From Lachnospiraceae bacterium (GTDB taxonomy: Bacteria > Bacillota > Clostridia > Lachnospirales > Lachnospiraceae): a stretch of 62,229 bases of DNA. Both the position numbers and the translations under genes were made by a program. How positions within the stretch are numbered: the first letter of the stretch is position 1; the number at the start of each line of letters is the position of its first letter. The stretch lies in the NCBI GenBank assembly GCA_017626325.1, contig JAGAIZ010000058.1, forward strand, positions 1-62,229, given 5' to 3'. The notes beneath the pieces are model-generated. The model saw nothing but the letters and a program-made list of their open reading frames with translations. It was not told where the DNA came from and did no database searches. Positions 3,354 to 15,765 of the stretch are shown piece after piece.

Positions 3354-3875
3354 ATGGCAAAGAATCTGATTATTTATTACTCCCGTGAGGGAGAAAATTA
3401 TGTGAATGGGCGAATTGAAAACCTAAAGAAAGGCAATACCAAAATATGTGCAGAGTATATTCAGAAAGCTGTTGGAGGAGATCTTTTTGAGATTCAGACA
3501 GTAAATGATTATTCCAAAGATTACCACATATGCACAGAAGAAGCTGCACAGGAAGTAAAAGATAATGCAAGACCGGAGCTGAAAAAGTACATGGACAACA
3601 TAGATTCATATAGCAATGTGTTTGTTTGTGGACCATGCTGGTGGGGTACTTTCCCGATGCCTGTTTTTTCTCAGATTGAAAGACTTGATTTTACCGGTAA
3701 AAAAGTAATGGTGCTTATGACACACGAAGGGAGCGGTCTTGGAAACAGTGAGCGAGACATAAGAAAAATGTGCAAAGGTGCAACCTTTGGAAACGGAATA
3801 GCAGTACATGGTGCAGACTCAAAAAAAGCTGTGAAAGCTGTTGCGGCATGGGCAAAGAAAAATGTAGAAGGATAA
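3354..3875 (+). CDS. Flavodoxin family protein
   Basis: The 173-residue protein starts MAKNLIIYYSREGENYVNGR; the IIYYSREGEN segment is the phosphate-binding loop region of flavodoxin-like folds. VCGPCWWGTFPMPVFSQIE and THEGSGLGNSERDIR match the FMN-contact loops (PIWWG..P and THEGSG) of the short Firmicute flavodoxins. It is probably an FMN electron carrier or reductase partner. AGGAAGG at 3340-3346 lies 7 bases before the ATG. The SDR gene follows within 16 bases, so they form an operon under the divergent LysR regulator. Confidence 0.88.
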   Translation: MAKNLIIYYSREGENYVNGRIENLKKGNTKICAEYIQKAVGGDLFEIQTVNDYSKDYHICTEEAAQEVKDNARPELKKYMDNIDSYSNVFVCGPCWWGTFPMPVFSQIERLDFTGKKVMVLMTHEGSGLGNSERDIRKMCKGATFGNGIAVHGADSKKAVKAVAAWAKKNVEG

Positions 3876-3891
3876 AAAGGAATTAAGAACT

Positions 3892-4725
3892 ATGAGCAAA
3901 GAAGTGATGATCGTAACCGGTGCAGGACAGATTTCAATGGCAATCGCAAGACGTGTCGGTTACGGAAAGAAAATCATAATGGGCGATAAAAATATGGAAA
4001 ATGCAAAAGCCGTTGCCAAAATTATGAATGATGCAGGATATGATGTGAAGCCGGTGGAAATGGATTTGGCTTTCAGAGAATCTATTTCAAATCTGATTGC
4101 AAAAGCAAAAGAATATGGAGAGATTAAGATGCTGGTAAATGGAGCTGGTGTATCCCTATCTCAGGCTTCGATTGAAGCAATTTTAAAGGTAGATCTTTAT
4201 GGAACGGCGGTACTTCTGGAAGAAGTAGGCAAGGTCATCGGAAAAGGCGGTGTAGGTGTAACAATCTCAAGTCAGTCTGGCTGGAGAATGCCACAGTTGA
4301 CAGCCGAGCAGGATGCACAGCTTGCAACAACACCGACAGAGGAACTTTTAAGCCTTGAGATTTTACAGCCGGAGAATATCAGGGATACACTCCATGCATA
4401 CCAGATGGCAAAACGCTGCAATGAAAAGCGTGTCATGGCACAGTCGGTAGAGTGGGGAAAGAGAGGAGCAAGAATTAACGACATTGCCCCCGGAATTATC
4501 GTAACACCGCTTGCGATGGATGAGTTTAACGGACCTCGTGGAGATTTTTACAAAAATATGTTTGCCAAATGCCCGGCAGGAAGACCGGGAACAGCAGACG
4601 AAGTCGCAAATGTAGCAGAACTTTTGATGAGTGACAGAGGGGCATTTATTACAGGATCTACGTTCCTTGTTGATGGTGGAGCAACAGCAAACTACTACTA
4701 TGGTCCATTAAAGCCGGAAGCATAA
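3892..4725 (+). CDS. SDR-family NAD(P)-dependent oxidoreductase
   Basis: This is a 277-residue short-chain dehydrogenase. VTGAGQISMAIARRV forms the dinucleotide-binding turn, LVNGAGVS the NAG motif, TISSQSG carries the catalytic Ser, and HAYQMAKRCN contains the YxxxK pair. INDIAPGIIVTPLA and GSTFLVDGGATANYY are the usual C-terminal motifs. The TGAGQIS turn departs from the classical TGxxxGIG, as in other members of this LysR-linked clade. It is co-transcribed with the flavodoxin and acts in the cytoplasm; the substrate is unknown. Confidence 0.9.
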   Translation: MSKEVMIVTGAGQISMAIARRVGYGKKIIMGDKNMENAKAVAKIMNDAGYDVKPVEMDLAFRESISNLIAKAKEYGEIKMLVNGAGVSLSQASIEAILKVDLYGTAVLLEEVGKVIGKGGVGVTISSQSGWRMPQLTAEQDAQLATTPTEELLSLEILQPENIRDTLHAYQMAKRCNEKRVMAQSVEWGKRGARINDIAPGIIVTPLAMDEFNGPRGDFYKNMFAKCPAGRPGTADEVANVAELLMSDRGAFITGSTFLVDGGATANYYYGPLKPEA

Positions 4726-4729
4726 GAAT

Positions 4730-4810
4730 ATGGAGTGGTATAAGAAAGTGAGAGTCATTATTGCTGTTATGTGTATGATACCAATCCTGATGTCTGGCTG
4801 TAGAACATAA
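4730..4810 (+). pseudogene. Orphan lipoprotein signal peptide (26 codons)
   Basis: Directly after the SDR stop, an ATG at 4730 opens a 26-codon frame: a Lys/Arg N-region, a hydrophobic core (VIIAVMCMIPILM) and a lipobox LMSGC, then RT and a TAA stop. This is a complete lipoprotein export signal with no mature protein. In related loci a lipoprotein flavodoxin often follows the SDR gene, so this is probably the stump of such a gene, the rest having been deleted before the aldo/keto reductase. No GGAGG-type ribosome site is obvious. A free signal peptide function is possible but not supported. Confidence 0.55.
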
Positions 4811-4899
4811 AAAGAATGGGCAAAACAGTGTTTAAAATAGACAGTCAATAAAAAGCTATGATATGTATATAATTAGTCTGAAAGCAGGTGGATTTTATT

Positions 4900-5871
4900 A
4901 TGAAAAAACGGAAAATAGGAGAATCAATGGTGTCTGCAATCGGTCTTGGCTGCATGGGGATTACCCATGCAAGCGGGGCTCCTATGGATATAGAGGGAGG
5001 TGTCAATGTAATACGGCAGGCATATGATATGGGATATACATTATTCGATACAGCAGAGTGTTATACAGGAATTTACAAAGATGGCAGTATTGCATACAAT
5101 GAAGAAATTGTAGGAAAAGCTATACAGCCGGTTCGTGACAAGATAATGGTTGCTACAAAATTCGGAGTAAAACATGGTAATGGAACGTTACTTTTGGATA
5201 GCAGACCGGAAACAATCCGAAGGTCTGTGGAAGGAAGCCTGAAACGGTTACATACGGATTATATTGATTTATATTATCAGCACAGGATAGATCCGAATGT
5301 TGAACCGGAAGAAGTGGCTGAAATAATGGCAGAATTGATAAAAGAAGGAAAAATTTGCTCCTGGGGAATTTCTGAAAGCAATGAAGAATATCTTCGACGT
5401 GCACATTCTGTTTGTCCTGTTGCAGCTATACAAAATCGTTATTCTATGATGGCACGCTGGCATGAAAAACTGTTTCCTGTTGCGGAAGAACTTGGTATTG
5501 CATATGTGGCATTTTCACCAATGGCAAATGGATTTCTGACAGGAAGGTATCATCGTGATTCTGTTTTTGAAAAAGGAACAGATTACAGAAGTGATATGCC
5601 TCAGTATACAGAAGAAGGATTTACTAAAGGACAGGAACTGTTAGAACTGTTACATAATCTGGCAGAGGAAAAAGAGGCAGCTCCGGCACAGATTTCCCTG
5701 TCATGGATGCTGTGCAAAAAGCCATTTATCATTCCAATTCCGGGAAGCAGGAAAATAGAACGTTTGAAAGAAAATTTTGGAGCAATGAATGTGTCGCTTA
5801 CCGAAAAAGAAATTGCAGATATAGACAAAAAGCTGGATGCAATGAATATTCCGGTTTTTGGTGGTCATTGA
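4900..5871 (+). CDS. Aldo/keto reductase
   Basis: The 323-residue protein has the AKR TIM barrel with its tetrad: Asp and Tyr in LFDTAECYTG, Lys in VATKFGV and His in LYYQHRIDPN. The NADPH-binding end IPIPGSRKIERLKENFGA is intact. A GTG at 4888 is an alternative, but AGGTGG at 4886-4891 is 8 bases before the ATG at 4900, which decides the start. It lies downstream of the flavodoxin and SDR genes in the same orientation and likely belongs to the same redox set, reducing aldehydes or ketones with NADPH in the cytoplasm. Confidence 0.92.
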   Translation: MKKRKIGESMVSAIGLGCMGITHASGAPMDIEGGVNVIRQAYDMGYTLFDTAECYTGIYKDGSIAYNEEIVGKAIQPVRDKIMVATKFGVKHGNGTLLLDSRPETIRRSVEGSLKRLHTDYIDLYYQHRIDPNVEPEEVAEIMAELIKEGKICSWGISESNEEYLRRAHSVCPVAAIQNRYSMMARWHEKLFPVAEELGIAYVAFSPMANGFLTGRYHRDSVFEKGTDYRSDMPQYTEEGFTKGQELLELLHNLAEEKEAAPAQISLSWMLCKKPFIIPIPGSRKIERLKENFGAMNVSLTEKEIADIDKKLDAMNIPVFGGH

Positions 5872-5877
5872 TTTTTT

Positions 5878-5920
5878 AAGACCAACAAGCTCAGCATAAT
5901 CAAGTGCGATTGTTGGTCTT
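5878..5920 (+). terminator. Hairpin after aldo/keto reductase
   Basis: AAGACCAACA at 5878-5887 is the exact inverse of TGTTGGTCTT at 5911-5920, with a 23-base loop, just past the stop codon. The T tract is short. Confidence 0.5.
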
Positions 5921-5943
5921 TAAATTATAATTCTAATAAAAAT

Positions 5944-6333
5944 ATGGGATTTGATTTTATGTTCAATGTGTTTCCGTTTATGTTTGGTATTATATTTATT
6001 ATAGTGATTGGTATGTTTATTGTGACAGCAGTAAGAGGGATTGGTGAGTGGAATAAGAATAATCAATCGCCCCGACTGACAGTAGCAGCTACTGTTGTGG
6101 CAAAGAGACAGAATGTTTCACATAGCCATCATGCAAATGCAGGAGATATGTCGGGGGCTCATGGGTATCATACAAGTACCCATACCACTTACTATGTTAC
6201 CTTTCAGGTGGAAAGCGGTGATAGGATGGAGCTTGCTGTAAGCGGCAGTGAGTATGGTATGCTTGCGGAGGGAGGTCAGGGACAGCTTTCTTTTCAGGGA
6301 ACAAGGTATCTGGAATTTCGCAGGGAAATTTAA
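5944..6333 (+). CDS. DUF2500-family membrane protein
   Basis: The 129-residue protein has one N-terminal membrane segment (residues 8-30, FPFMFGIIFIIVIGMFIV) and an external or cytoplasmic beta-rich domain with ATVVAKRQNVSHSHH, TTYYVTFQVESGDRMEL and SYGMLAEGGQG-like motifs typical of DUF2500. Function is unknown for the family. A His-rich linker (SHSHHANAGDMSGAHGYH) is notable. No clear ribosome site precedes the ATG at 5944; the in-frame ATG at 5959 is an alternative. It stands between two terminators and is probably expressed alone. Confidence 0.8.
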   Translation: MGFDFMFNVFPFMFGIIFIIVIGMFIVTAVRGIGEWNKNNQSPRLTVAATVVAKRQNVSHSHHANAGDMSGAHGYHTSTHTTYYVTFQVESGDRMELAVSGSEYGMLAEGGQGQLSFQGTRYLEFRREI

Positions 6334-6366
6334 TTGATTGCAAAAAAAGACTGAAGAACGGAAAAG

Positions 6367-6408
6367 GCAGGGAAAACGGTATGATGAATACTGATTTCCC
6401 TGCTTTTT
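6367..6408 (+). terminator. Terminator after DUF2500 gene
   Basis: GCAGGGAAA at 6367-6375 pairs perfectly with TTTCCCTGC at 6395-6403 and is followed by TTTTT. Confidence 0.75.
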
Positions 6409-6418
6409 CTTAAATTAT

Positions 6419-6559
6419 TTGTTCATCAGAAGTGAAAAAGGCGGTATTGTTACTCTAAAAATATCTACATTTACAAAAGGTGTACAATATTCCACCCAAA
6501 ATGGCTGGTTTAGTCACTCTGATAAAACCAACTCTTACGGTACAATACATACAGCTTAA
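6419..6559 (+). other. Orphan open frame, possible gene remnant
   Basis: An open frame from a TTG at 6419 to TAA at 6557 reads through a Gly/Ser/Thr/aromatic-rich stretch, KGVQYSTQNGWFSHSDK then TNSYGTIHTA. There is no ribosome site or ATG, so it looks like the 3' remnant of a secreted-protein or bacteriocin-like gene rather than a live gene. I do not recognise the family. Confidence 0.25.
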
Positions 6560-6592
6560 GCAAATACATAAGGTGCCGGAAAAGAGTGAAAG

Positions 6593-6916
6593 GTGTACTA
6601 CGACATTGTAAAGAGTGGAAAACGAATCAGCGGACTTAGGACAGCACGGGGTATGACAAGACAGCAGTTTGCAGAACTGATAGGAATATCAGTAGATGCA
6701 ATGCGTAAGATAGAACTTGGCATAAATGGGGCAAAGATAGATACCCTAATTAGTATTGCAGATATGTTTGAGGTATCGTTAGACTATCTGGTATGCGGAG
6801 GTGAAAGAAAAATGGATATTGATAATCTGCTGGCAGGACTGAAAGAGAATGAAATACAGTTTATCAAAAATATGATTTTGAGTACCATTGATAATATGAA
6901 ACTTCTGACAGAATAA
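6593..6916 (+). CDS. XRE-family helix-turn-helix regulator
   Basis: The 107-residue protein has a canonical XRE/Cro helix-turn-helix at residues 10-65 (GKRISGLRTARGMTRQQFAE then LIGISVDAMRKIELG), followed by VSLDYLVCGG and a C-terminal helical tail that may mediate dimerisation. It starts at GTG 6593; an in-frame TGA lies at 6587, so no earlier start is possible, and the ribosome site is weak. It is followed by its own strong terminator, immediately before the long non-coding leader of the recombinase module, so it may regulate that module. Confidence 0.85.
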   Translation: MYYDIVKSGKRISGLRTARGMTRQQFAELIGISVDAMRKIELGINGAKIDTLISIADMFEVSLDYLVCGGERKMDIDNLLAGLKENEIQFIKNMILSTIDNMKLLTE

Positions 6917-6960
6917 AAAATCGGATTGCATTTTATAAAAAAGTGCAGTCCGATTTTTTT
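6915..6960 (+). terminator. Strong terminator after XRE gene
   Basis: A long hairpin with arms AATCGGATTGCA and TGCAGTCCGATT (one mismatch) ends in TTTTTTT. Confidence 0.85.
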
Positions 6961-7075
6961 GTGGGGAATTTCAGATAAAGAGTGCTGCTCCCACTAAAAA
7001 GAGTGTGGGTTACTGTAGTGGCAGCCTCCAGTCAGTTATACTTTGTGCAGGTTCTTAAAAAAGAGCCACTGAACA

Positions 7076-7566
7076 TTGACAACTGAATAGGACACGCATA
7101 CATCTGATTTTATTTTCGCCTTTATCCGTCAGCTTAAAGCAGACGGATGGAGGTGGCAGAAACCCATTTCGTGCGATGAAGCTCCTCGATGCGGACAACC
7201 GGCATACAACTTATTGATTTGTTTAGCGGAAACGGTGGTCCGGTATCGTGCCTGTGAAGGTTCTGAGCAGAGGTTTGTGCCTACCGGACTGGCAGCCGGA
7301 GATAATGAGATAAAACAGCACCGGAATTTCAGCGAAACGCATTTTTCGGGAGTGGCTTCCTGTAGACTCTGTCCGGTTGGGCAGTGACGGAGATGCAGTG
7401 TGGGATTGCCGTCCCGGTGTATGTTACCCGGCTGGGGGATCTGATTGAGAAATCAGCTCAATAAATCTTTTATGATTTTTACGGATAAAGTGGCATTCGT
7501 GCCACCTTGTCCTTTGAGATAAAGAAATTGACACGCAAGGTATGCGGTATGGAGCAGTTTCTTTAT
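7076..7566 (+). ncRNA. Long structured non-coding leader of the recombinase module (candidate RNA)
   Basis: From 6961 to 7629 no plausible gene is seen. A -35 TTGACA at 7076 with a weak TACATC 17 bases on could start a transcript. Perfect helices lie at 7124-7130/7142-7148, 7238-7245/7282-7289 (8 bp closing a 36-base domain) and 7441-7446/7451-7456 (capped by a GAGA tetraloop). Others are 7490-7494/7501-7505, extendable outward, and 7518-7526/7558-7566. The stretch is GC-richer than the flanking island genes, as expected for structured RNA in an AT-rich genome. No known class was recognised; group II intron domain V is absent. Confidence 0.4.
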
Positions 7567-7629
7567 TTCAGAGGATAAACGCCGGCATATCTTTCTGTAA
7601 AAATCTATGAAAGAGCAGGTACAGAGAAT

Positions 7630-8067
7630 ATGTGCAATGTTGAAATTGTAATAAACGGAGAGATATTTCCGCTTCCGGGCGAATTTAAGCAGGGAATTTT
7701 GTTTATGAACACAAACAAGTCGGAGCGTAATATCCGAAAGATGATTGCCGAAAAGAGGCTTGAATGTATTCCCTATGGAATTGCAATCGGTCATGATACG
7801 GTCATCTGCAAAGGTCCTGACAGGGATATTGACCGTGATGCAGTTAATCTTCTGATTTCCTTTCTTCTTACCGGAGAATATGAAACAGTGGTGGTGGACA
7901 GGCTTACGGACATTACACCGGAATTATCTGATCAGGAGGAGTTTCTAAAGGACGCTGCCAAAATCGGAGTGAGTGTATTTGAACTTTCCACAATGAAAAT
8001 CAGAAATCATGTGTATCTGGAAGGCTGTCTGGACTGCTGTGATGACAGCGGTATATTAAGGATGTGA
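7630..8067 (+). CDS. Small resolvase-fold-like protein of the recombinase module
   Basis: The 145-residue protein has no clear family. Its C-terminal half, ETVVVDRLTDITPELSDQEE then FLKDAAKIGVSVFELS, follows the pattern of the serine-recombinase catalytic domain, where VVVKDLSRLSRD is followed by a GV(R/K)F strand. Here the catalytic Ser motif is absent, so any relation implies an inactive, possibly regulatory derivative. It has two Cys near the end (GCLDCCDD) and no membrane segment. It precedes mazF by 6 bases, so the two are co-transcribed. Function is unassigned. Confidence 0.7.
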   Translation: MCNVEIVINGEIFPLPGEFKQGILFMNTNKSERNIRKMIAEKRLECIPYGIAIGHDTVICKGPDRDIDRDAVNLLISFLLTGEYETVVVDRLTDITPELSDQEEFLKDAAKIGVSVFELSTMKIRNHVYLEGCLDCCDDSGILRM

Positions 8068-8073
8068 TTTCGT

Positions 8074-8439
8074 ATGAAGATCAGACGGGGTGACATATTA
8101 TATGTTGATATGGGTGGACAGTATCAGGGCAGTATGCAGGGAGGAATGCGACCTGTGGTGGTAGTCAGTAACAACATGGCAAACAGACACAGCACCGTCC
8201 TGACGGTTGTTCCCCTGTCCACCAAAATCAACAAAAAGAGAAATCTTCCCACCCATGTATTTGTTTCTGCATACAGAAGTGAAGGACTAAACCAGCACAG
8301 CATCGCACTCTGCGAACAGGTAACAGCACTTGATTATGGCAGAATCATCGAAAATATGGGAAAGGTCGATGAAAATACCCTTGCAAGAATCACCGAGGCA
8401 GTACAGGTGCAGGTCGGGGTATTTGATAAGTACAACTAA
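8074..8439 (+). CDS. PemK/MazF-family toxin (type II toxin-antitoxin)
   Basis: The 121-residue protein is a full-length MazF-fold endoribonuclease: RRGDILYVDMG, the GGMRPVVVVSNN strand-loop with the conserved Arg-Pro, VLTVVPLST and the CEQVTALDYGRI segment that ends in the active-site region. MazF enzymes cut mRNA at short motifs and are normally held by an upstream antitoxin. Here neither neighbour looks like a MazE/ribbon-helix-helix antitoxin. The upstream 145-residue protein and the downstream 40-codon ORF are the candidates. Such MazF genes recur in Clostridial recombinase-bearing elements. Confidence 0.9.
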   Translation: MKIRRGDILYVDMGGQYQGSMQGGMRPVVVVSNNMANRHSTVLTVVPLSTKINKKRNLPTHVFVSAYRSEGLNQHSIALCEQVTALDYGRIIENMGKVDENTLARITEAVQVQVGVFDKYN

Positions 8440-8562
8440 ATGCTGCCGGAGGGATATTATTTCAGAATCATTCCTTATGGAGCGGCACTGTTTTACAGAG
8501 GAAGATTTGTAAGACTGTTTGCTACGGAAGCAGAGTTGTATGAATATTTTGAGGAGGAATAG
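8440..8562 (+). CDS. 40-residue ORF coupled to mazF
   Basis: An ATG directly abuts the mazF stop (TAA 8437-8439) and opens 40 codons: MLPEGYYFRIIPYGAALFYR then GRFVRLFATEAELYEYFEEE. The immediate abutment suggests translational coupling, and the terminator follows directly after the stop, which supports it as the last gene of the unit. Aromatic N-terminal half and acidic tail; no known family. An antitoxin or MazF accessory role is a guess only. Confidence 0.55.
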   Translation: MLPEGYYFRIIPYGAALFYRGRFVRLFATEAELYEYFEEE

Positions 8563-8568
8563 AGATTA

Positions 8569-8595
8569 GAGCCGGGCGGAAGTCCGGCTTTTTAC
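8569..8595 (+). terminator. Terminator after mazF unit
   Basis: AGCCGG at 8570-8575 pairs with CCGGCT at 8584-8589, followed by TTTTT. Confidence 0.8.
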
Positions 8596-8721
8596 ATATC
8601 TGCCCAAAGGGGCAGGATATGCCATTTATATAGAAGAAATATTGAATGGAGCAATGGCAGATTTTATGTCATAGGACAGTCTGTTGACATAATAAAATAG
8701 GAAGGAGCAGAGAAAACGGAT

Positions 8722-9000
8722 TTGAGTAAAAGTATGACAATTGAAGAATTAAAGCGTTTGCAGTCCATTCATATTATGGATTTGAAAAGAGAAGAACTTG
8801 CCAATGCTGAGGATATTGTAATAGATACGGAAAAGTGTGTGGAAAGCCGTATTGAATCTTATATAGAACAGACCGGTAATCCGTTTGCACAGAATGTCGG
8901 GGAATATATATTACAGATAGGACACATGGAAGATGCAGCAGATACCATTGATGAACGTTTGATACTGCTTACAAAAAGAAAAACGCAGATAATGGTTTAA
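8722..9000 (+). CDS. DUF6870 family protein
   Basis: The 92-residue protein has the pattern of DUF6870: an N-terminal TIEELKRLQSIHIMDLKREE helix, a central VESRIESYIEQTGNPFAQ, then VGEYILQIGHMEDA and an acidic-basic tail. The family accompanies large serine recombinases in Clostridial elements and has no known function. It starts at TTG 8722, preceded by AAGGAGC at 8703-8709; an in-frame ATG at 8734 is the alternative. Probably transcribed ahead of the recombinases. Confidence 0.7.
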   Translation: MSKSMTIEELKRLQSIHIMDLKREELANAEDIVIDTEKCVESRIESYIEQTGNPFAQNVGEYILQIGHMEDAADTIDERLILLTKRKTQIMV

Positions 9001-9139
9001 AAGGTTAAAAAAGTTCTTTACAGAGGACAGGAATCATGGTAACTTATAAGCAGGATTATTTCAGTGGGAATCCTGATTATAGGTTTCAATGCCCCGTAGG
9101 ACGGGTTTTGCTAACAATATTTAATCAGGAGGAACGCAG

Positions 9140-10795
9140 ATGAAAGCAAAAGAGTTTTATAATGTAGCCATTTATCTCCGTTTAAGTCGTGATGATGAGG
9201 ATATTGATGGCAGCAAAACAGAAAGCAACAGTATCAGTTCACAGAGAGATATGATTCGTGGCTTTATTAGAAAGCAGGATGACATGGAAATCTACGATAT
9301 ATATGTAGATGACGGTTATTCGGGAGCGAATTTCGACAGACCGGAATTTAAGCGTATGATGAAAGACGTTGAAGCCGGAAATGTTGACTGTGTGATTGTA
9401 AAGGACTTATCCAGATTAGGACGAGATTATATTGAAGCCGGGCGGTTGATTCAGAAGACCTTCCCGGCTTTTTCTGTGCGGTTTATTGCACTTACAGACC
9501 ATTTTGATTCGCTGACAGCGGACTACAATGAAACATCATTAGTGGTTCCGGTAAAAAATTTTGTCAATGATTCTTATTCAAGGGATATTTCCGGTAAGGT
9601 AAGAAGTCATCAGAAGATAAAGCGGGAAAATGGAGACTTTATCGGTGCATTTGCAGTATACGGATACAAAAAATGCGAGGATAACAGAAACCAGCTTGTG
9701 CCGGATGATTATGCGGCAGACATTGTACGAAAAATCTTTGCATGGAAAATAGAAGGGTACAGTAATCTGGCGATTGCAAACAGACTGGACAATTTGGGGA
9801 TTTTAAGCCCTATGGAATACAAAAAGATGAAGGGAGATAAGTTTCAGACCGGATTTGTAACCGGTGTAAAAGCAAAATGGTCAGCGGTTGCAGTAAAAAG
9901 AATACTGAGCAATGAAAATTACATTGGAACCTTAGTGCAGGGAAAAGAAGAAAAGGTCAATTATAAAGTGAAAAAGTCGGTAAAAAAGCCGGAAGAAGAA
10001 TGGACGAAGGTGCCGGATGCACATGAAGCCATTATTTCAAAAGAAGATTTTGAGATTGTGCAGGATTTACTTATGATTGATACCCGTGCAGGCGGTGGGG
10101 AAGAAAAAGCTCACATTTATGCGGGACTGCTGTTCTGCGGAGACTGTATGGAGCCGATGATACGCAGGGTAAACCGTTATAAAGGAAAAGAAACGGTTTC
10201 ATTTATCTGTTCCACAAAGAATAAAAGCGGAGAGTGTTCAAGACACACCATTTCAGAGGCAGCATTGAATCAGCTTGTACTTACCGGACTTAGGACTCAG
10301 GTATCTCTCTTTTTGAATAAAAGCAGGGTTCTTCGTTCCATAGAACAGATGGAAGTTAATTTTGAGGAAGTGGTTGCTTTTGATAAGGAAATTGAAAGAT
10401 TGCACAGTGAACAGGACAAATATCTGGGACTTCGTGCAGGACTGTATGAGGATTTGAAAAAGCAGATTATTACGGAGGAAGATTTCAAAAATTTCCGTGA
10501 GATATATGAGAAACGCTATCAGGAGCTTCAACAGGCAATTTCAAATCAGGAAGAAACTATAAAGAGACTTTTTAAGTCGGGAGTGACAGCGGGAATCAAT
10601 CTGGAACGTATGAAAACGGTCATGCAGGTAACAGAACTTGACCGTATGACACTGGTTTCTCTTGTGAAGCGTATTCTTGTGTATGAAGATAAAAGAGTAT
10701 ATCTTGAACTTCGCAGCAAAGAACTGTTCTCAAAGGTTCTCATGCTTGCAGGATATGTGGAAACACTCGGACAGTCCAGAGGGGAGGCAGTGTAA
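9140..10795 (+). CDS. Large serine recombinase 1 (TnpX/TndX type)
   Basis: The 551-residue protein has an N-terminal resolvase domain with catalytic Ser16 in IYLRLSRDDED and the Arg-bearing VIVKDLSRLGRDYIEAGR. A recombinase DNA-binding domain (about 165-290) follows, then a zinc ribbon with LLFCGDCMEPMIRR and FICSTKNKSGEC, and a coiled-coil region (about 385-480). All recombination landmarks are intact. It is the first of three adjacent recombinases; AGGAGG at 9128-9133 serves the ATG. It probably acts on attachment DNA for excision or integration of the island. Confidence 0.93.
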   Translation: MKAKEFYNVAIYLRLSRDDEDIDGSKTESNSISSQRDMIRGFIRKQDDMEIYDIYVDDGYSGANFDRPEFKRMMKDVEAGNVDCVIVKDLSRLGRDYIEAGRLIQKTFPAFSVRFIALTDHFDSLTADYNETSLVVPVKNFVNDSYSRDISGKVRSHQKIKRENGDFIGAFAVYGYKKCEDNRNQLVPDDYAADIVRKIFAWKIEGYSNLAIANRLDNLGILSPMEYKKMKGDKFQTGFVTGVKAKWSAVAVKRILSNENYIGTLVQGKEEKVNYKVKKSVKKPEEEWTKVPDAHEAIISKEDFEIVQDLLMIDTRAGGGEEKAHIYAGLLFCGDCMEPMIRRVNRYKGKETVSFICSTKNKSGECSRHTISEAALNQLVLTGLRTQVSLFLNKSRVLRSIEQMEVNFEEVVAFDKEIERLHSEQDKYLGLRAGLYEDLKKQIITEEDFKNFREIYEKRYQELQQAISNQEETIKRLFKSGVTAGINLERMKTVMQVTELDRMTLVSLVKRILVYEDKRVYLELRSKELFSKVLMLAGYVETLGQSRGEAV

Positions 10796-12481
10796 ATGGC
10801 AAGAACCTCGAAAAAGAAGCCTAAAGAAGCGGCAATCGGATTAAACAGCAGACCGTCAAAAATATATTCTGTGGGAATTTATGCAAGACTGTCTGTAGAT
10901 TCCGGTGAGCGAAAAAATGAGTCCATTGAAACGCAGATGGAAATAGCAAAAGCGTTTGTAAAAAATCAGAATGACATGGTTATCTTTGACTGCTATTCGG
11001 ATATAGGAAAAACGGGAACAAACTTTGAAAGAGAAGGATTTGAACGCATGATGCGTGATGTCAGAATGCGAAAGATTGACTGTATCATAGTAAAAGATTT
11101 ATCCCGCTTTGGAAGAAACCATATTGAAACGGGAAATTATATTGAAAAAATTTTTCCATTTATGGGAGTAAGGTTCATAGCTGTTACGGATCATTTTGAC
11201 AGCATGAATATATCCGGACAAAATGAAACGCTGGGTGTTAATCTTAAAAATCTCGTAAATGAAATGTATGCAAGGGACATTGCCTTAAAAGTAAAGTCCT
11301 CAAGAAAAGCAAAATGGGAACAGGGCAGTTACACAGGCGGAGTAGCTCCTTACGGATACAGGGCAGAATGGGTTGATGATAAAAAATGTCTTTTTCCGGA
11401 AGATGGGACTTCTGATATTGTGAAGAAATTATTTGAACTGTTTCTGTCCGGTAAAAATATGAAGGAAATTACAGTATGGCTTTACGAACAAAGAATTTTA
11501 AAGCCTTCAGAATACCACAAAACAGGTCAGATTTATTGTGAGAAGGGAGAAAACTTAAAACAGTGGTCCAATGCTTCCGTCAAAATGCTTCTGACAAATC
11601 CGGTATATATCGGCTGCCTTGTGCAGGGAAGAACCTGCGGAAAAGATTATATGATGCGGAGCAGACATGATATTGATTCCGGGGACTGGTCGGTAAAGGA
11701 GCATACACATGAACCACTGGTCAGTGAGGAAACATTCTTTCAGGCGGCGGCGAAGTTTGAAAAATCTTCAAAATACTGTAATAAAGCCGGATATTCAAAA
11801 ATAGTTCCGCCTGACGAGGATATCTATGCAGATGTTCTTTTCTGTGGTGACTGTGGTACGAAAATGCGGCGTATATGTGCAATCAAACAGTTTTCGTCAG
11901 GAAGAAAAGTAAGGACTTACAGCTATAACTGTCCAAAAACAAGCAGGATTGACGATGAAAAGTGCGTGAAAAAAAGCATTACTTTACAGACACTAAATGA
12001 TATTGTGAAAGAAGCAATCCGTCAGGAATTTTCCTTATCTGCCATGCGACCAAAACAGCTTGTGGAGAGCAATAATATGGAAGCGGAACACAGAAAGGAA
12101 GAATGGAGACAGGAGCTGCTTGAATGGGAAAGGAGAATTGAGAACACAAAAAAACTGGGAAGCGAGCAATATTTAAAGTATCGTATGGGAGAACTGGGAG
12201 AGGATACTTTTAAGCAGTTAAAGGAAGAAAATGATAAGAAGATTTTTAGCTGTCAGAAAAAGTGTGCAGATATTGAGGAGAAACTTAGAACAGTAGATTA
12301 TGAAACGGTACAGAAAAATCATTTCCTGCGTACTCTCGTAAAAGGAAATGAGAAAACTGAACTGACAGAGGAGGTTATCCGTACTCTGATCAGCAGGATT
12401 GAGGTTTATCCGGATCACAGGGTGAAAGTGATTTTTAATTTCAAAAGAAGTGAAATACAGTTAAGGAAGGAGGACTTTTAG
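10796..12481 (+). CDS. Large serine recombinase 2
   Basis: The 561-residue protein begins immediately after the stop of recombinase 1 (TAAATG). Catalytic Ser33 lies in IYARLSVDSGERKN, with the active-site arginines around VKDLSRFGRNHIETGNYIE. The recombinase domain is followed by a zinc ribbon (VLFCGDCGTKMRR, YNCPKTSRIDDEKC) and a coiled coil (about 430-500). The N-terminus is about 17 residues longer than in its neighbours and basic. Sequence differs strongly from recombinases 1 and 3, so this is an old set of paralogues rather than a recent duplication. Confidence 0.93.
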   Translation: MARTSKKKPKEAAIGLNSRPSKIYSVGIYARLSVDSGERKNESIETQMEIAKAFVKNQNDMVIFDCYSDIGKTGTNFEREGFERMMRDVRMRKIDCIIVKDLSRFGRNHIETGNYIEKIFPFMGVRFIAVTDHFDSMNISGQNETLGVNLKNLVNEMYARDIALKVKSSRKAKWEQGSYTGGVAPYGYRAEWVDDKKCLFPEDGTSDIVKKLFELFLSGKNMKEITVWLYEQRILKPSEYHKTGQIYCEKGENLKQWSNASVKMLLTNPVYIGCLVQGRTCGKDYMMRSRHDIDSGDWSVKEHTHEPLVSEETFFQAAAKFEKSSKYCNKAGYSKIVPPDEDIYADVLFCGDCGTKMRRICAIKQFSSGRKVRTYSYNCPKTSRIDDEKCVKKSITLQTLNDIVKEAIRQEFSLSAMRPKQLVESNNMEAEHRKEEWRQELLEWERRIENTKKLGSEQYLKYRMGELGEDTFKQLKEENDKKIFSCQKKCADIEEKLRTVDYETVQKNHFLRTLVKGNEKTELTEEVIRTLISRIEVYPDHRVKVIFNFKRSEIQLRKEDF

Positions 12482-12482
12482 A

Positions 12483-14009
12483 ATGAAAGAGTATCGGATT
12501 GCAATTTATATCCGCTTATCAAAAGAAGATGATAAAATCAAGGAAGAAAGCAACAGTGTTACCATGCAGCGTATACTTCTGCATAAATATGTGGCAGACA
12601 ATTTTTCTGATTATGAATTATCTGAGTTTTGTGATGACGGATATACGGGTACGAATTTTGAGCGTCCCGGAATGCAGAAACTTTTGGAAAAAATAAGGGA
12701 TATGGAAATAGACTGTATCATAGTAAAGGATTTTTCGAGATTTGCAAGAGACTATATTGAACTCGGCTCTTATCTGGAACAGATATTCCCATTTATGGGA
12801 GTAAGGTTTATTTCTGTAAATGACCATTATGACAGCAAAAGTTATCAGGGAAGCATCGCAGACATTGATGTGAATTTTAAGAATCTTCTGTATGATTTGT
12901 ACAGTAAGGATTTGTCACAAAAAGTCCGTTCTTCGCTTGCCATTAGGAAAGAGCAGGGACAGTATATCAGCGGAAACAGTCCTTTTGGATATGAAAAAGA
13001 TCCAAAGGACAGGCACGCACTGCTGATTGCAGAGGACGAAGCCAAAATCGTCAGAAAAATCTTTTCTTTAACCGTGGAAGGCTATACCTCTACACAGATT
13101 GCAAGGCTTTTTAATGAAAATCGTGTAAAGACACCGATTGAATTTAAAATTGAGAAAGGAAAAACGACAAGAGAGCCAAAAGGCGGGAGGTTTTTATGGA
13201 ATACTTCCGCAATATGTCAGATACTAAAAAATGAAATCTACATTGGCAACATTGTCCAAAAGAAATATGAAAAGGATTATGTAGGTGGAAGAAACCACAT
13301 AAAACCCCGTGAGGAGTGGCTGGTGGGATATAACCACCATGAGCCAATCATTGAAAAAGAAGTGTTTTATAAGGTGCAGGAAGGTCGTGGAAAGAAAAGA
13401 AATCCACAGCACAGAAAGACACATCCGCTTATAGGAAAACTGGTATGTGGGTGTTGTAAAAAGAACCTTCGGTTAAGATATGGACTGAATCCTTATTTTA
13501 CCTGTCATAACCGTTATTCCAATGCAATGGAAAATTGTGTTGACAGAGTGAATATGATGTTTCTTGAACAGTATATTCTTTATAAATTGCAGGAAAAACT
13601 GGAAACAGACGGAGAAGCGGGAAAAATTCATGCAGATATGGTATCGCAGATGCAGAGTGAAGTCAGAGAACTGAAAGCAAAAAGAGAACAGCTAAAAGGA
13701 AAAATACAGAAGGCTCAAAAACAGAAATTTGAGGCATATGAAGATTATGTGTCCGGTAAGAGTGCAGGTTTTCATTCCGATGAAGTTATGGTAAAATCAA
13801 TGGAAGATGAACTGAAATCCATGAATGAGAAAATTCAGGAACTGGAAGACTCTTATACGAAGCTTATGTGTGAGCAGGGCGGCTTGTGGGCAGGAAGTAA
13901 TTTTGCAGAGTTGTCAAAGGAAATGTTAGATCATTATATTGAAAAAATAGTGGTATATAATGAACAGCACATGGAAATCGTCTGGAAAAATCAAGTCGAA
14001 CATTTGTGA
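12483..14009 (+). CDS. Large serine recombinase 3
   Basis: The 508-residue protein has catalytic Ser13 in IYIRLSKEDDK, VKDFSRFARDYIELGSYLEQ in the catalytic core, a recombinase domain, a zinc ribbon (LVCGCCKKNLRLRYG, YFTCHNRYSNAMENC) and a coiled coil (about 365-460). It starts one base after the stop of recombinase 2, so the three are translated from one message. Loss of the usual Gly in SRFxRD (SRFARD) is a mild deviation. It is the terminal gene of the island, followed by two perfect inverted repeats. Confidence 0.93.
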   Translation: MKEYRIAIYIRLSKEDDKIKEESNSVTMQRILLHKYVADNFSDYELSEFCDDGYTGTNFERPGMQKLLEKIRDMEIDCIIVKDFSRFARDYIELGSYLEQIFPFMGVRFISVNDHYDSKSYQGSIADIDVNFKNLLYDLYSKDLSQKVRSSLAIRKEQGQYISGNSPFGYEKDPKDRHALLIAEDEAKIVRKIFSLTVEGYTSTQIARLFNENRVKTPIEFKIEKGKTTREPKGGRFLWNTSAICQILKNEIYIGNIVQKKYEKDYVGGRNHIKPREEWLVGYNHHEPIIEKEVFYKVQEGRGKKRNPQHRKTHPLIGKLVCGCCKKNLRLRYGLNPYFTCHNRYSNAMENCVDRVNMMFLEQYILYKLQEKLETDGEAGKIHADMVSQMQSEVRELKAKREQLKGKIQKAQKQKFEAYEDYVSGKSAGFHSDEVMVKSMEDELKSMNEKIQELEDSYTKLMCEQGGLWAGSNFAELSKEMLDHYIEKIVVYNEQHMEIVWKNQVEHL

Positions 14010-14019
14010 GACTTGGTGC

Positions 14020-14053
14020 GTGATTTCGGTCAGCATATGCTGACCGAAATCAC
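14020..14053. repeat. Perfect 34-base palindrome after the recombinases
   Basis: Arms GTGATTTCGGTCAGCAT at 14020-14036 and its exact inverse at 14037-14053 meet with no loop. It begins 11 bases after the stop of recombinase 3. It may be a terminator, or a recombinase or accessory-protein site near the island end. Confidence 0.8.
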
Positions 14054-14071
14054 TGCACATCCTGGCGGAGC

Positions 14072-14102
14072 ATGTTATCTTGGTTGAAAACCAAGATAAC
14101 AT
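14072..14102. repeat. Perfect 14-bp inverted repeat, 3-base loop
   Basis: ATGTTATCTTGGTT at 14072-14085 is the exact inverse of 14089-14102, loop GAA. With the preceding palindrome it forms the closing structure of the island. No T tract follows, so plain termination is not the obvious role. Confidence 0.8.
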
Positions 14103-14250
14103 AGTTGTGGCATAGTCGGCTTTCAGGATTTTGCAGATATTTAACAAGAAAGACCGGTATTTCAAGCAACAGCTTAACAGCAGGTATCGTTTTTAAGCAA
14201 AAAAGCGGGAAAAACCTTGAAAAAAAGTTAAAAAATTTGTTTGCAACTAC

Positions 14251-15765
14251 TTGACAGGAGAGGGAATTGCTTACCGGAACCGGGATTTCAGAAATCAGGA
14301 TGGGTCGACCAGAATACGTTACCTGTGGGATCAGACCTTAGAGGCGGGGCAGGTGTGGGAGCAGATCAGCAGGAGCGGACTGCTGCCAGAAGAAAGAAAG
14401 GAAACGTATGCGCCGCCGTCAGGTTATCGGCTGGGTGTGGAATTCCGTGCGGCACAGATCAACGAAGCACTCAATGCCGACTCGGAAGCAGAAGGTAATC
14501 TGCTTGTGCCAAGTGTAGATACGTCGGGACACGGTACTGCTGTCGCCGGTATTGCGGCAGGGAACGGAGGAACAGCCGGAGCGGCCTATGCCGGGATCGC
14601 AAGAGAAAGCGAACTGCTGGTCGTCCGGCTCGGAACACCCAGAGCAGATTCTTTCCCGCGTACTACGGAACTTATGCGTGCATTGACCTATACAGTTAAT
14701 AAGGCGATAGAACTGCGAATGCCGGTGGCGGTAAATTTAAGCTTCGGCAATACGTATGGAGCGCATAACGGAACCTCCCTTCTGGAGCGGTTTCTGGATA
14801 ATATATCGGAAATAGGAAGAAATGTAATCTGTGTGGGGAGCGGCAATGAGGGAGCCTCCGGCGGACATGTGGGCGGCAGCGTAGCGGTCACCGGACGTGG
14901 AGAAGTGGCTTTGACTAATATAGTCGATAGAACTGACGGTTCTGCCGGAGAAAATGTGACACGTGTGGAACTTGTCATCGGAGCCTATGAGACAGGCGTA
15001 AATGTGCAGTTATGGAAAGAGTACACGGACCGCTATCTGGTGACAATGGTGTCGCCTTCAGGAGAATCTTTCACGGTGGATACTGACCAGCCCGGTAAAC
15101 AGACCTACAGGCTGGATCAGACACAGATTCTGCTCTATAATGGGGAGCCTGCGCCTTATCTGACCAGCCAGGAGATCTATTTTGACCTGCTGCCGGGAGG
15201 GGACAGCCGTTATGTGAATGCGGGCGTATGGACTTTTCTGCTGCAGCCTGTGAGAACGATTACCGGCAATTATACCTTTTATCTGCCGTCAGGTACGGTG
15301 CGCAATGCCAATACCCGTTTCGTCAGAAACACGCCGGATGTAACGCTGACCATTCCGTCTACGGCATCCAAGGTAGTCACGGTGGGCGCTTATGACATTG
15401 TCTATGACGCATATGCGGATTTCTCCGGCAGAGGGTATCTCTATCAGGAGCAGGTCAACAGCCGGACTTCCGATTCCTTTGTCAAGCCGGATCTGGTGGC
15501 GCCCGGTATCAATATTCTTGCGCCCGACAGGGAGGGCGGCTATACGCCGGTTACCGGAACATCCTTTGCCGCGCCTTTCGTGACGGGAGCGGCGGCGGTT
15601 CTGATGCAATGGGGCATCGTGGATGGGCATGACCCTTATCTGTATGGGGAGAAGGTGAAGGCGTACTTAAGGCGTGGTGCGAAGCCCATCCGGGGGGAGA
15701 CGGAGTATCCGAATGCGAGAGTGGGGTATGGGGCGCTGTGTGTAAGGGATAGCCTGCCGGAGTAA
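14251..15765 (+). pseudogene. S8 (subtilisin) family peptidase, N-terminally truncated at the island junction
   Basis: The 504-codon frame keeps the catalytic His94 (DTSGHGTAVAGIAAG), oxyanion Asn199 (VGSGNEGAS) and Ser438 (TGTSFAAPFVTGAA). The N-terminal part with the catalytic Asp (usually VDSGI or VDTGI before the YRNRDFRNQDGSTRI segment) is missing; the frame enters from island sequence at about 14250. The only start is a TTG at 14251 without a ribosome site. Downstream of residue 12 it matches the large clostridial CspA-like proteases. It is probably inactive. Codon use and GC are those of the backbone. Confidence 0.75.

Follow-up and report, generated by a model that had tools for sequence, protein, structure and literature searches.

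A structured RNA family without Rfam match in the leader position of recombinase operons of Lachnospiraceae

Does a stretch of DNA that precedes a module of recombinase genes specify an RNA, and which function could such an RNA have? The question is raised by positions 6961–7629 of a 62,229-nucleotide contig of a Lachnospiraceae bacterium (the whole stretch analysed is called here the window). In an earlier note the interval was viewed as a large structured RNA of no known class, leading the recombinase module. Homologues, covariation and the absence of Rfam matches support this view. A conserved, plus-strand structured RNA family without Rfam match resides in the leader position of recombinase operons; genomes of Lachnospiraceae carry its members, those of Roseburia faecis, R. 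inulinivorans and R. hominis among them.

The interval and its surroundings

All features described below are on the plus strand, unless otherwise stated. The interval is flanked at one side by a gene encoding a XRE-family HTH regulator (6593–6916; Pfam HTH_3). The upstream terminator mentioned in the earlier note corresponds to a terminator-like inverted repeat (6915–6959), made by two 20-nt arms 90% complementary and a T run, located between the HTH gene and the RNA. At the opposite side, the first gene (7630–8067) encodes a small protein, called here dRes, found in profile searches to be similar to serine recombinase catalytic domains. A MazF/PemK-family gene (8074–8439; PF02452, E 1.1e-26), a gene assigned to DUF6870 by domain search (8722–9000), and three large serine recombinase genes (9140–10795, 10796–12481 and 12483–14009, PF00239 and PF07508 in each) follow.

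No ORF of at least 60 aa is found on the plus strand within 6961–7629, described earlier as gene-free; a 113-aa ORF on the minus strand (7453–7794) overlaps it. In the same interval a tRNA search identified no tRNA, and Tandem Repeats Finder returned no rows. The GC content, said to exceed that of the surrounding island, does so (46.2%, versus 39.7% in 6340–14240), but is about equal to that of the whole window (46.7%), and reaches 52% in 7096–7439. The many helices reported earlier are present too, but predicted helices alone are weak evidence, as other segments of the contig score as low. Relative to shuffled sequences, the folding energy of the whole region has a z of -4.2 or -3.6 (two runs), and values from -3.5 to -4.6 were obtained for 3 of 10 other segments of the same contig. 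The z is ordinary (-0.9) in the conserved core defined below (7084–7439), and -7.1 in 7440–7629. Folding energy was dropped as proof of an RNA, because the core value is ordinary and the other segments are equally low. Not being decisive, it was replaced in this role by covariation.

The RNA lies within approximately 7049–7605. It probably does not start at 6961, as previously indicated: a weak -10-like hexamer (TATACT, 7037–7042), recognized by eye, suggests a 5' end near 7049. A loose scan, run without control, flagged -10-like hexamers in 23 of the 39 regions examined upstream of the RNA, that of the window not being among them. The RNA, or the operon transcript, is probably made from its own promoter. 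A XRE regulator gene lies directly upstream in 40 of 94 entries (some places were fetched twice), and is thus a common, not a universal, neighbour. At the 5' end a possible hairpin (GGTTCT/AGAGCC, 7050–7067) resembles hairpins seen in a subset of homologues; a script favoured in the window another pairing (TAGTGGC/GCCACTG).

Covariation and the structure of the core

A structure of 77 pairs was derived by RNAalifold from 15 aligned sequences (alignment A2), and 31 of these pairs are changed on both sides among the 15. Degenerate (L007, L012), near-duplicate (L022), and partial or edge-cut sequences (L023, L025, L026) were excluded from A2, as were very short BLASTN matches (L005, L006, L027–L029) and second pieces of the same places. 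Through the window row, 76 of the 77 pairs were transferred to a second alignment (A6). Sequences more than 92% identical to others, L134 (5' end unsettled), L122 (no 5' anchor), and L070, L111, L062, L107b, L124 and L117 (3' end not found) were left out of A6. The test set consists of 19 sequences outside the derivation set, none of which exceeds 92% identity with a member of that set or with another of the 19. In these, 1319 of 1406 cells pair (93.8%), and 51 of the 76 pairs feature double changes relative to the window. Homologous islands, covariance models (two, called R1 and R2) and compensatory changes, the checks proposed in the earlier note, are therefore all at hand.

When all 23 rows are considered, 94.2% of the cells are paired, against 81.9% in column shuffles and 41–49% in slid registers. 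Pairs changed on both sides are 52, against 28.2 in the shuffles, and the covariation score is 0.407, against 0.188. None of 500 shuffles reached the observed paired fraction, number of both-side changes or covariation score.

The conserved core (7084–7439) features 76 pairs arranged in 15 helices, as well as invariant stretches. As shown by covariation, its approximately 340 nt fold into a closed multi-helix domain. The closing helix (helix 1, 7096–7103/7417–7424) is probably the 8-bp helix that had been noticed as closing a domain, and co-varies in different members (CAUAC/GUAUG, CAUAUC/GAUAUG, GAUUC/GAAUC). In the second long-range helix (helix 2, 7104–7117/7307–7318) 8 of 11 pairs are changed on both sides. 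The domain covered by the R1 and R2 covariance models (7151–7308), which also co-varies, includes a helix at 7155–7174/7267–7281, a helix at 7181–7186/7258–7263, which carries a hairpin of variable length, and a hairpin at 7284–7299. A covarying hairpin with an internal loop (helices 10–12) is found at 7319–7354. The region of helices 13–14 comprises a covarying helix capped by GGGCA (7360–7369/7390–7398) and, 3' of it, a hairpin at 7402–7415. Two more short helices emerged from mutual information: one (7371–7373/7386–7388) extends the GGGCA-capped helix, the other is found at 7187–7189/7246–7248. A pseudoknot between 7250–7253 and the GGGC at 7379–7382 was considered, and found no clear support in covariation. 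The invariant stretches of the core suggest a specific ligand or partner.

The changes tell which molecule folds. The cells include 169 G-U and only 18 A-C combinations, hence the plus-strand RNA folds; neither a DNA cruciform nor an antisense RNA would be expected to yield such a bias. An antisense RNA, one of the options listed earlier, is disfavoured by this excess and by the sense orientation of the RNA to the operon. The location within a recombinase module could hint at a site of recombination or transfer acting as DNA, in which inverted repeats would merely look like RNA helices; such an excess of G-U pairs is unexpected for a double-stranded or opposite-strand function, the putative right end of the element lies approximately 6.6 kb away from the RNA, within a S8 peptidase gene, and we regard a DNA site as very improbable. 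Some homologues are open for about 100 aa across the core, as might be seen in a decayed coding sequence with chance helices. Other homologues have only short open stretches, and in pairs of homologues at least 78% identical, 105 of 124 indels (the pairs overlap) are not multiples of 3, and thus argue against a coding role. Given also the strong covariation, a decayed gene is effectively refuted by the 19-sequence test, and its probability is negligible.

Known RNA families were searched for in parallel. At gathering scores Rfam 15 gave no match in the window, and in 12 homologous loci matched only the HTH-XRE RNA (RF02923), outside the RNA described here. Permissive scans of 6900–7700 of the window and of 9300–10200 of one divergent locus (L156) gave only sub-gathering matches. 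Models of the T-box and of group I and II introns do not match the window or the homologous loci, and the same holds, in the window and the 12 loci, for GOLLD, ROOL, HEARO and OLE, all of which are Rfam families. GOLLD, ROOL and HEARO are similar in size, in having a complex conserved fold and in the link with mobile elements; in contrast to them, the new RNA has no Rfam match and is a leader tied to a recombinase operon. A multi-helix core with invariant stretches could also belong to a ribozyme, self-cleaving or self-splicing, by which the operon transcript would be processed; we find this quite improbable, as Rfam, introns and ribozymes included, gave no match, and the RNA keeps a fixed position before a gene, rather than inside genes.

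In 4 of the 12 scanned loci (L102, 2884–2969; L157, 2882–2961; L122, 2722–2803; L051, 922–1003) a HTH-XRE RNA precedes the new RNA by 1.1–3.9 kb, and none is found in the window by the Rfam scan. They measure about 80 nt, occupy a separate position and do not match the new RNA. The family is apparently uncatalogued. A survey of the literature showed nothing on such RNA; an anonymous earlier entry may be present in the supplementary candidate tables of a large published set of RNA candidates (PMC8040213).

Relatives, associated genes and the mobile element

Used as BLASTN query, the RNA of the window matches 6 of 98 near genomes, its own included; two of the six matches, 27 bases each, were treated as chance. 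A search started from a homologue reached 20 of the 396 genomes in the family sample, several of them through weak matches. R1, the covariance model that describes the central domain with 114 positions and 24 pairs, matches 17 genomes, that of the window being one of them, in a family sample of 397, and missed one genome (G476) in which the RNA is present. A 23-base pattern occurs at 75 places in named genome records, and at 4 places in viral contigs. R1 matches 78 of these 79 loci (79 matches, as one locus has two). The remaining one, L071, is matched by neither covariance model, and looks like a fragment.

By record title, hosts are mainly Lachnospiraceae (the placement of Roseburia in this family was confirmed), and include Roseburia faecis, R. 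inulinivorans, R. hominis, Eubacterium plexicaudatum, [Clostridium] fimetarium and Petralouisia muris, along with many MAGs; a few records bear other titles. The three Roseburia species are common in the human gut. Only the own genome was matched in the phylum sample with R1 (1 of 398), and in the order (1 of 206) and class (1 of 196) samples with R2; these scans are fast and can lose weak matches, and the samples overlap. BLASTN with the RNA of the window gave no matches in phage and plasmid collections. In viral contigs, a first 30-base pattern gave no match, and a second pattern the 4 loci, all matched by R1. A third pattern gave 5 stretches, two already known and three new (L188–L190), the latter located in a long ORF and not matched by R1.

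Genes encoding dRes, MazF, DUF6870 or recombinase proteins were considered as members of the module. Downstream sequence of at least 1500 nt is available in 66 loci, and in 61 of these a module protein is encoded on the same strand, within 3 kb downstream of the RNA. The 66 are not independent: grouping at 92% identity reduces the 64 that have a full core to 25 groups. In the 3 kb upstream, no module protein is encoded in any of the 79 loci, 54 of which hold at least 1500 nt on that side; a single locus (L131) has a module protein on the opposite strand.

The first module gene varies. dRes comes first in 44 of the 66 loci, DUF6870 in 13, MazF in 3 and a recombinase in 2; no module gene is seen in the remaining 4. 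In 37 of 45 dRes-first loci (a redundant set), the best-supported start is located 40–65 nt after the helix H2 described below. In DUF6870-first loci, the gap behind H2 measures 79–242 nt in 10 of the 12 measured; in L110, one of the 13 loci, the gene is 5.2 kb off, behind other ORFs.

MazF is found in the operon of most dRes-first loci, and RNA, dRes and MazF are jointly absent in a sister element (L052), as might be expected if the RNA were an antitoxin or decoy of the MazF-family protein, in a type III-like toxin-antitoxin system. The likeness to ToxI, the RNA of such a system, is that in many loci the RNA precedes a MazF-family gene. Type III RNA antitoxins are tandem repeats of an RNA unit; the RNA of the window, unlike these, has no tandem repeats, and its linkage to MazF is not constant. 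In 15 of the 66 loci the module, as far as recognised, opens with DUF6870 or a recombinase; the short gap leaves no room for a MazF gene in 10 of the 12 DUF6870-first loci measured; and dRes usually lies between RNA and MazF. The exchangeable first gene argues against a MazF-specific antitoxin, which we consider quite improbable.

The dRes protein of the window belongs to no Pfam, NCBIfam or PADLOC family. A profile of dRes sequences (A7) matches the TP901-1 integrase (E 8.9e-6) and, more weakly, the gamma-delta resolvase (E 0.004–0.014), and a relative in L156 scores above the Pfam Resolvase cut-off. Y-x-R-x-S is the catalytic motif of serine recombinases. In dRes the motif is replaced (FMNTN in the window, for example), and we infer from this that dRes is a dead serine recombinase catalytic domain.

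The putative right end of the element falls inside the S8 peptidase gene (14241–15765 of the window). The gene lacks profile positions 1–49, which presumably hold the catalytic Asp. Two sister elements stop at the same S8 point (L041, from 10589 on; L052, oriented, from 11674 on), hence the S8 gene is the apparent target site. No left end could be located. The sister element in L052 (oriented 6097–6519), whose first recombinase is 88% identical, has kept only the first bases of the RNA.

Some copies are located in other contexts. Of the four loci without a module gene, L070 and L106 look like relics. The other two, L061 and L112, come from two species and have the order HTH, HTH, RNA core, conserved ORF (84 or 83 aa); the core lacks a strong H2-like helix. 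Behind this ORF lies an ORF which, from its sequence, we take to be Spo0A-like, at about 0.3 kb in L112, and at about 4 kb, after transporter-like ORFs, in L061. The RNA may possibly have been domesticated in these two loci. Two divergent copies reside in one genome: the one in L155 leads a HTH_17 protein and a tyrosine integrase, the one in L156 (oriented 3549–9600) is followed by a dRes-like protein and then by T2SSE/T2SSF-family genes.

The 3' platform and the possible role of the RNA

The core is followed by a small hairpin and then by two helices, H1 and H2. The GAGA-capped hairpin already reported in the window is confirmed at 7441–7456. H1 (7483–7495/7500–7512) has a UUCG loop, and none of 60 shuffles was as good in the window. 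H2 (7507–7530/7555–7578) is found as an inverted repeat. Both need residues 7507–7512 in the window, so that the full helices are mutually exclusive. The platform was surveyed in 36 members (29 mutually dissimilar and 7 added). H2, assessed without shuffle control, is strong in 34 of the 36 (exceptions are L134 and L155). H1 helices sharing a strand with H2 rank in the best 5% of shuffles in 23 members, and those obtained from a simple search are not significant in the other 13. Mutually exclusive platform helices are thus supported, at the level of predicted pairing, in most members examined.

A scan of the region 3' of the switch revealed no convincing intrinsic terminator and no masking of ribosome sites. 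The single match of the terminator scan near the switch corresponds to the upper part of H1, with tail CTTGTCCTTT. A short leader peptide 3' of H2 was considered and discarded: starts are present in some members, and the frame, as judged by eye, differs among close relatives.

Two modes of action may be envisaged, in trans and in cis. The core might be released, for example by RNase III at H2, and act in trans or as a ribonucleoprotein, in which the recombinases, the dead-resolvase protein or host factors would be its partners. Large ornate RNAs are similar in size and in their many invariant bases, H2 is a long helix with few defects, and L061 and L112 tell that the core can lack a strong H2. 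In 61 of 66 loci, however, the module lies downstream of the RNA and on the same strand, and in 37 of 45 only a short gap separates the RNA from the first gene; no constant protein partner is seen, dRes and MazF being absent from part of the loci. We judge action in trans unlikely.

The leader position favours action in cis. The reading that we prefer, with modest confidence, is that the RNA is a new family of cis-acting leaders, in which a riboswitch-like sensor core and a bistable platform would control recombinase expression. Transcription would begin ahead of the recombinase operon, probably at a promoter belonging to the RNA itself, and the core would most likely sense a small molecule, a protein or a physiological state. 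The platform would then form H1 or H2, never both in full, and the choice would most likely set the expression of the first gene and of the recombinases behind it. As no convincing intrinsic terminator follows H2, the regulated step could be translation, RNA processing or stability. The element would excise only under some condition. The role as regulator of excision advanced earlier for the RNA is plausible.

Like riboswitches and bistable leaders, the RNA is located 5' of an operon, as indicated by its position in 61 of 66 loci and by the spacing to the first gene, and features a closed, conserved, sensor-like core. The helices predicted between core and first gene would exclude each other as in such leaders; of the 36 members, 34 have a strong H2 and 23 a significant H1. 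It differs from them because the core measures about 340 nt, no ligand is known, no Rfam riboswitch matches, and recombinases of unrelated families are found downstream. The mechanism class, a leader switch, may be already known. A wider proposal, on which we are more hesitant and which falls somewhat short of an even chance, is that the RNA represents a class of sensor-switches gating the excision of Lachnospiraceae elements, those with serine and those with tyrosine recombinases alike, and co-opted by other operons. Counted among the latter are the T2SSE/T2SSF secretion-type genes and the small gene near the Spo0A-like gene.

To our knowledge, little has been learned on how such elements decide to excise. 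The RNA, large, strongly covarying and without Rfam relative, sits at the head of recombinase operons; a RNA sensor there would make the decision directly testable.

Next to the platform, the strand ending H2 (GGATAA or GAGATAA; 7573–7586 in the window, and homologues) is followed by a short palindrome. By eye, the palindrome is GCCGGC in one group of members and GUGCAC-like in another.
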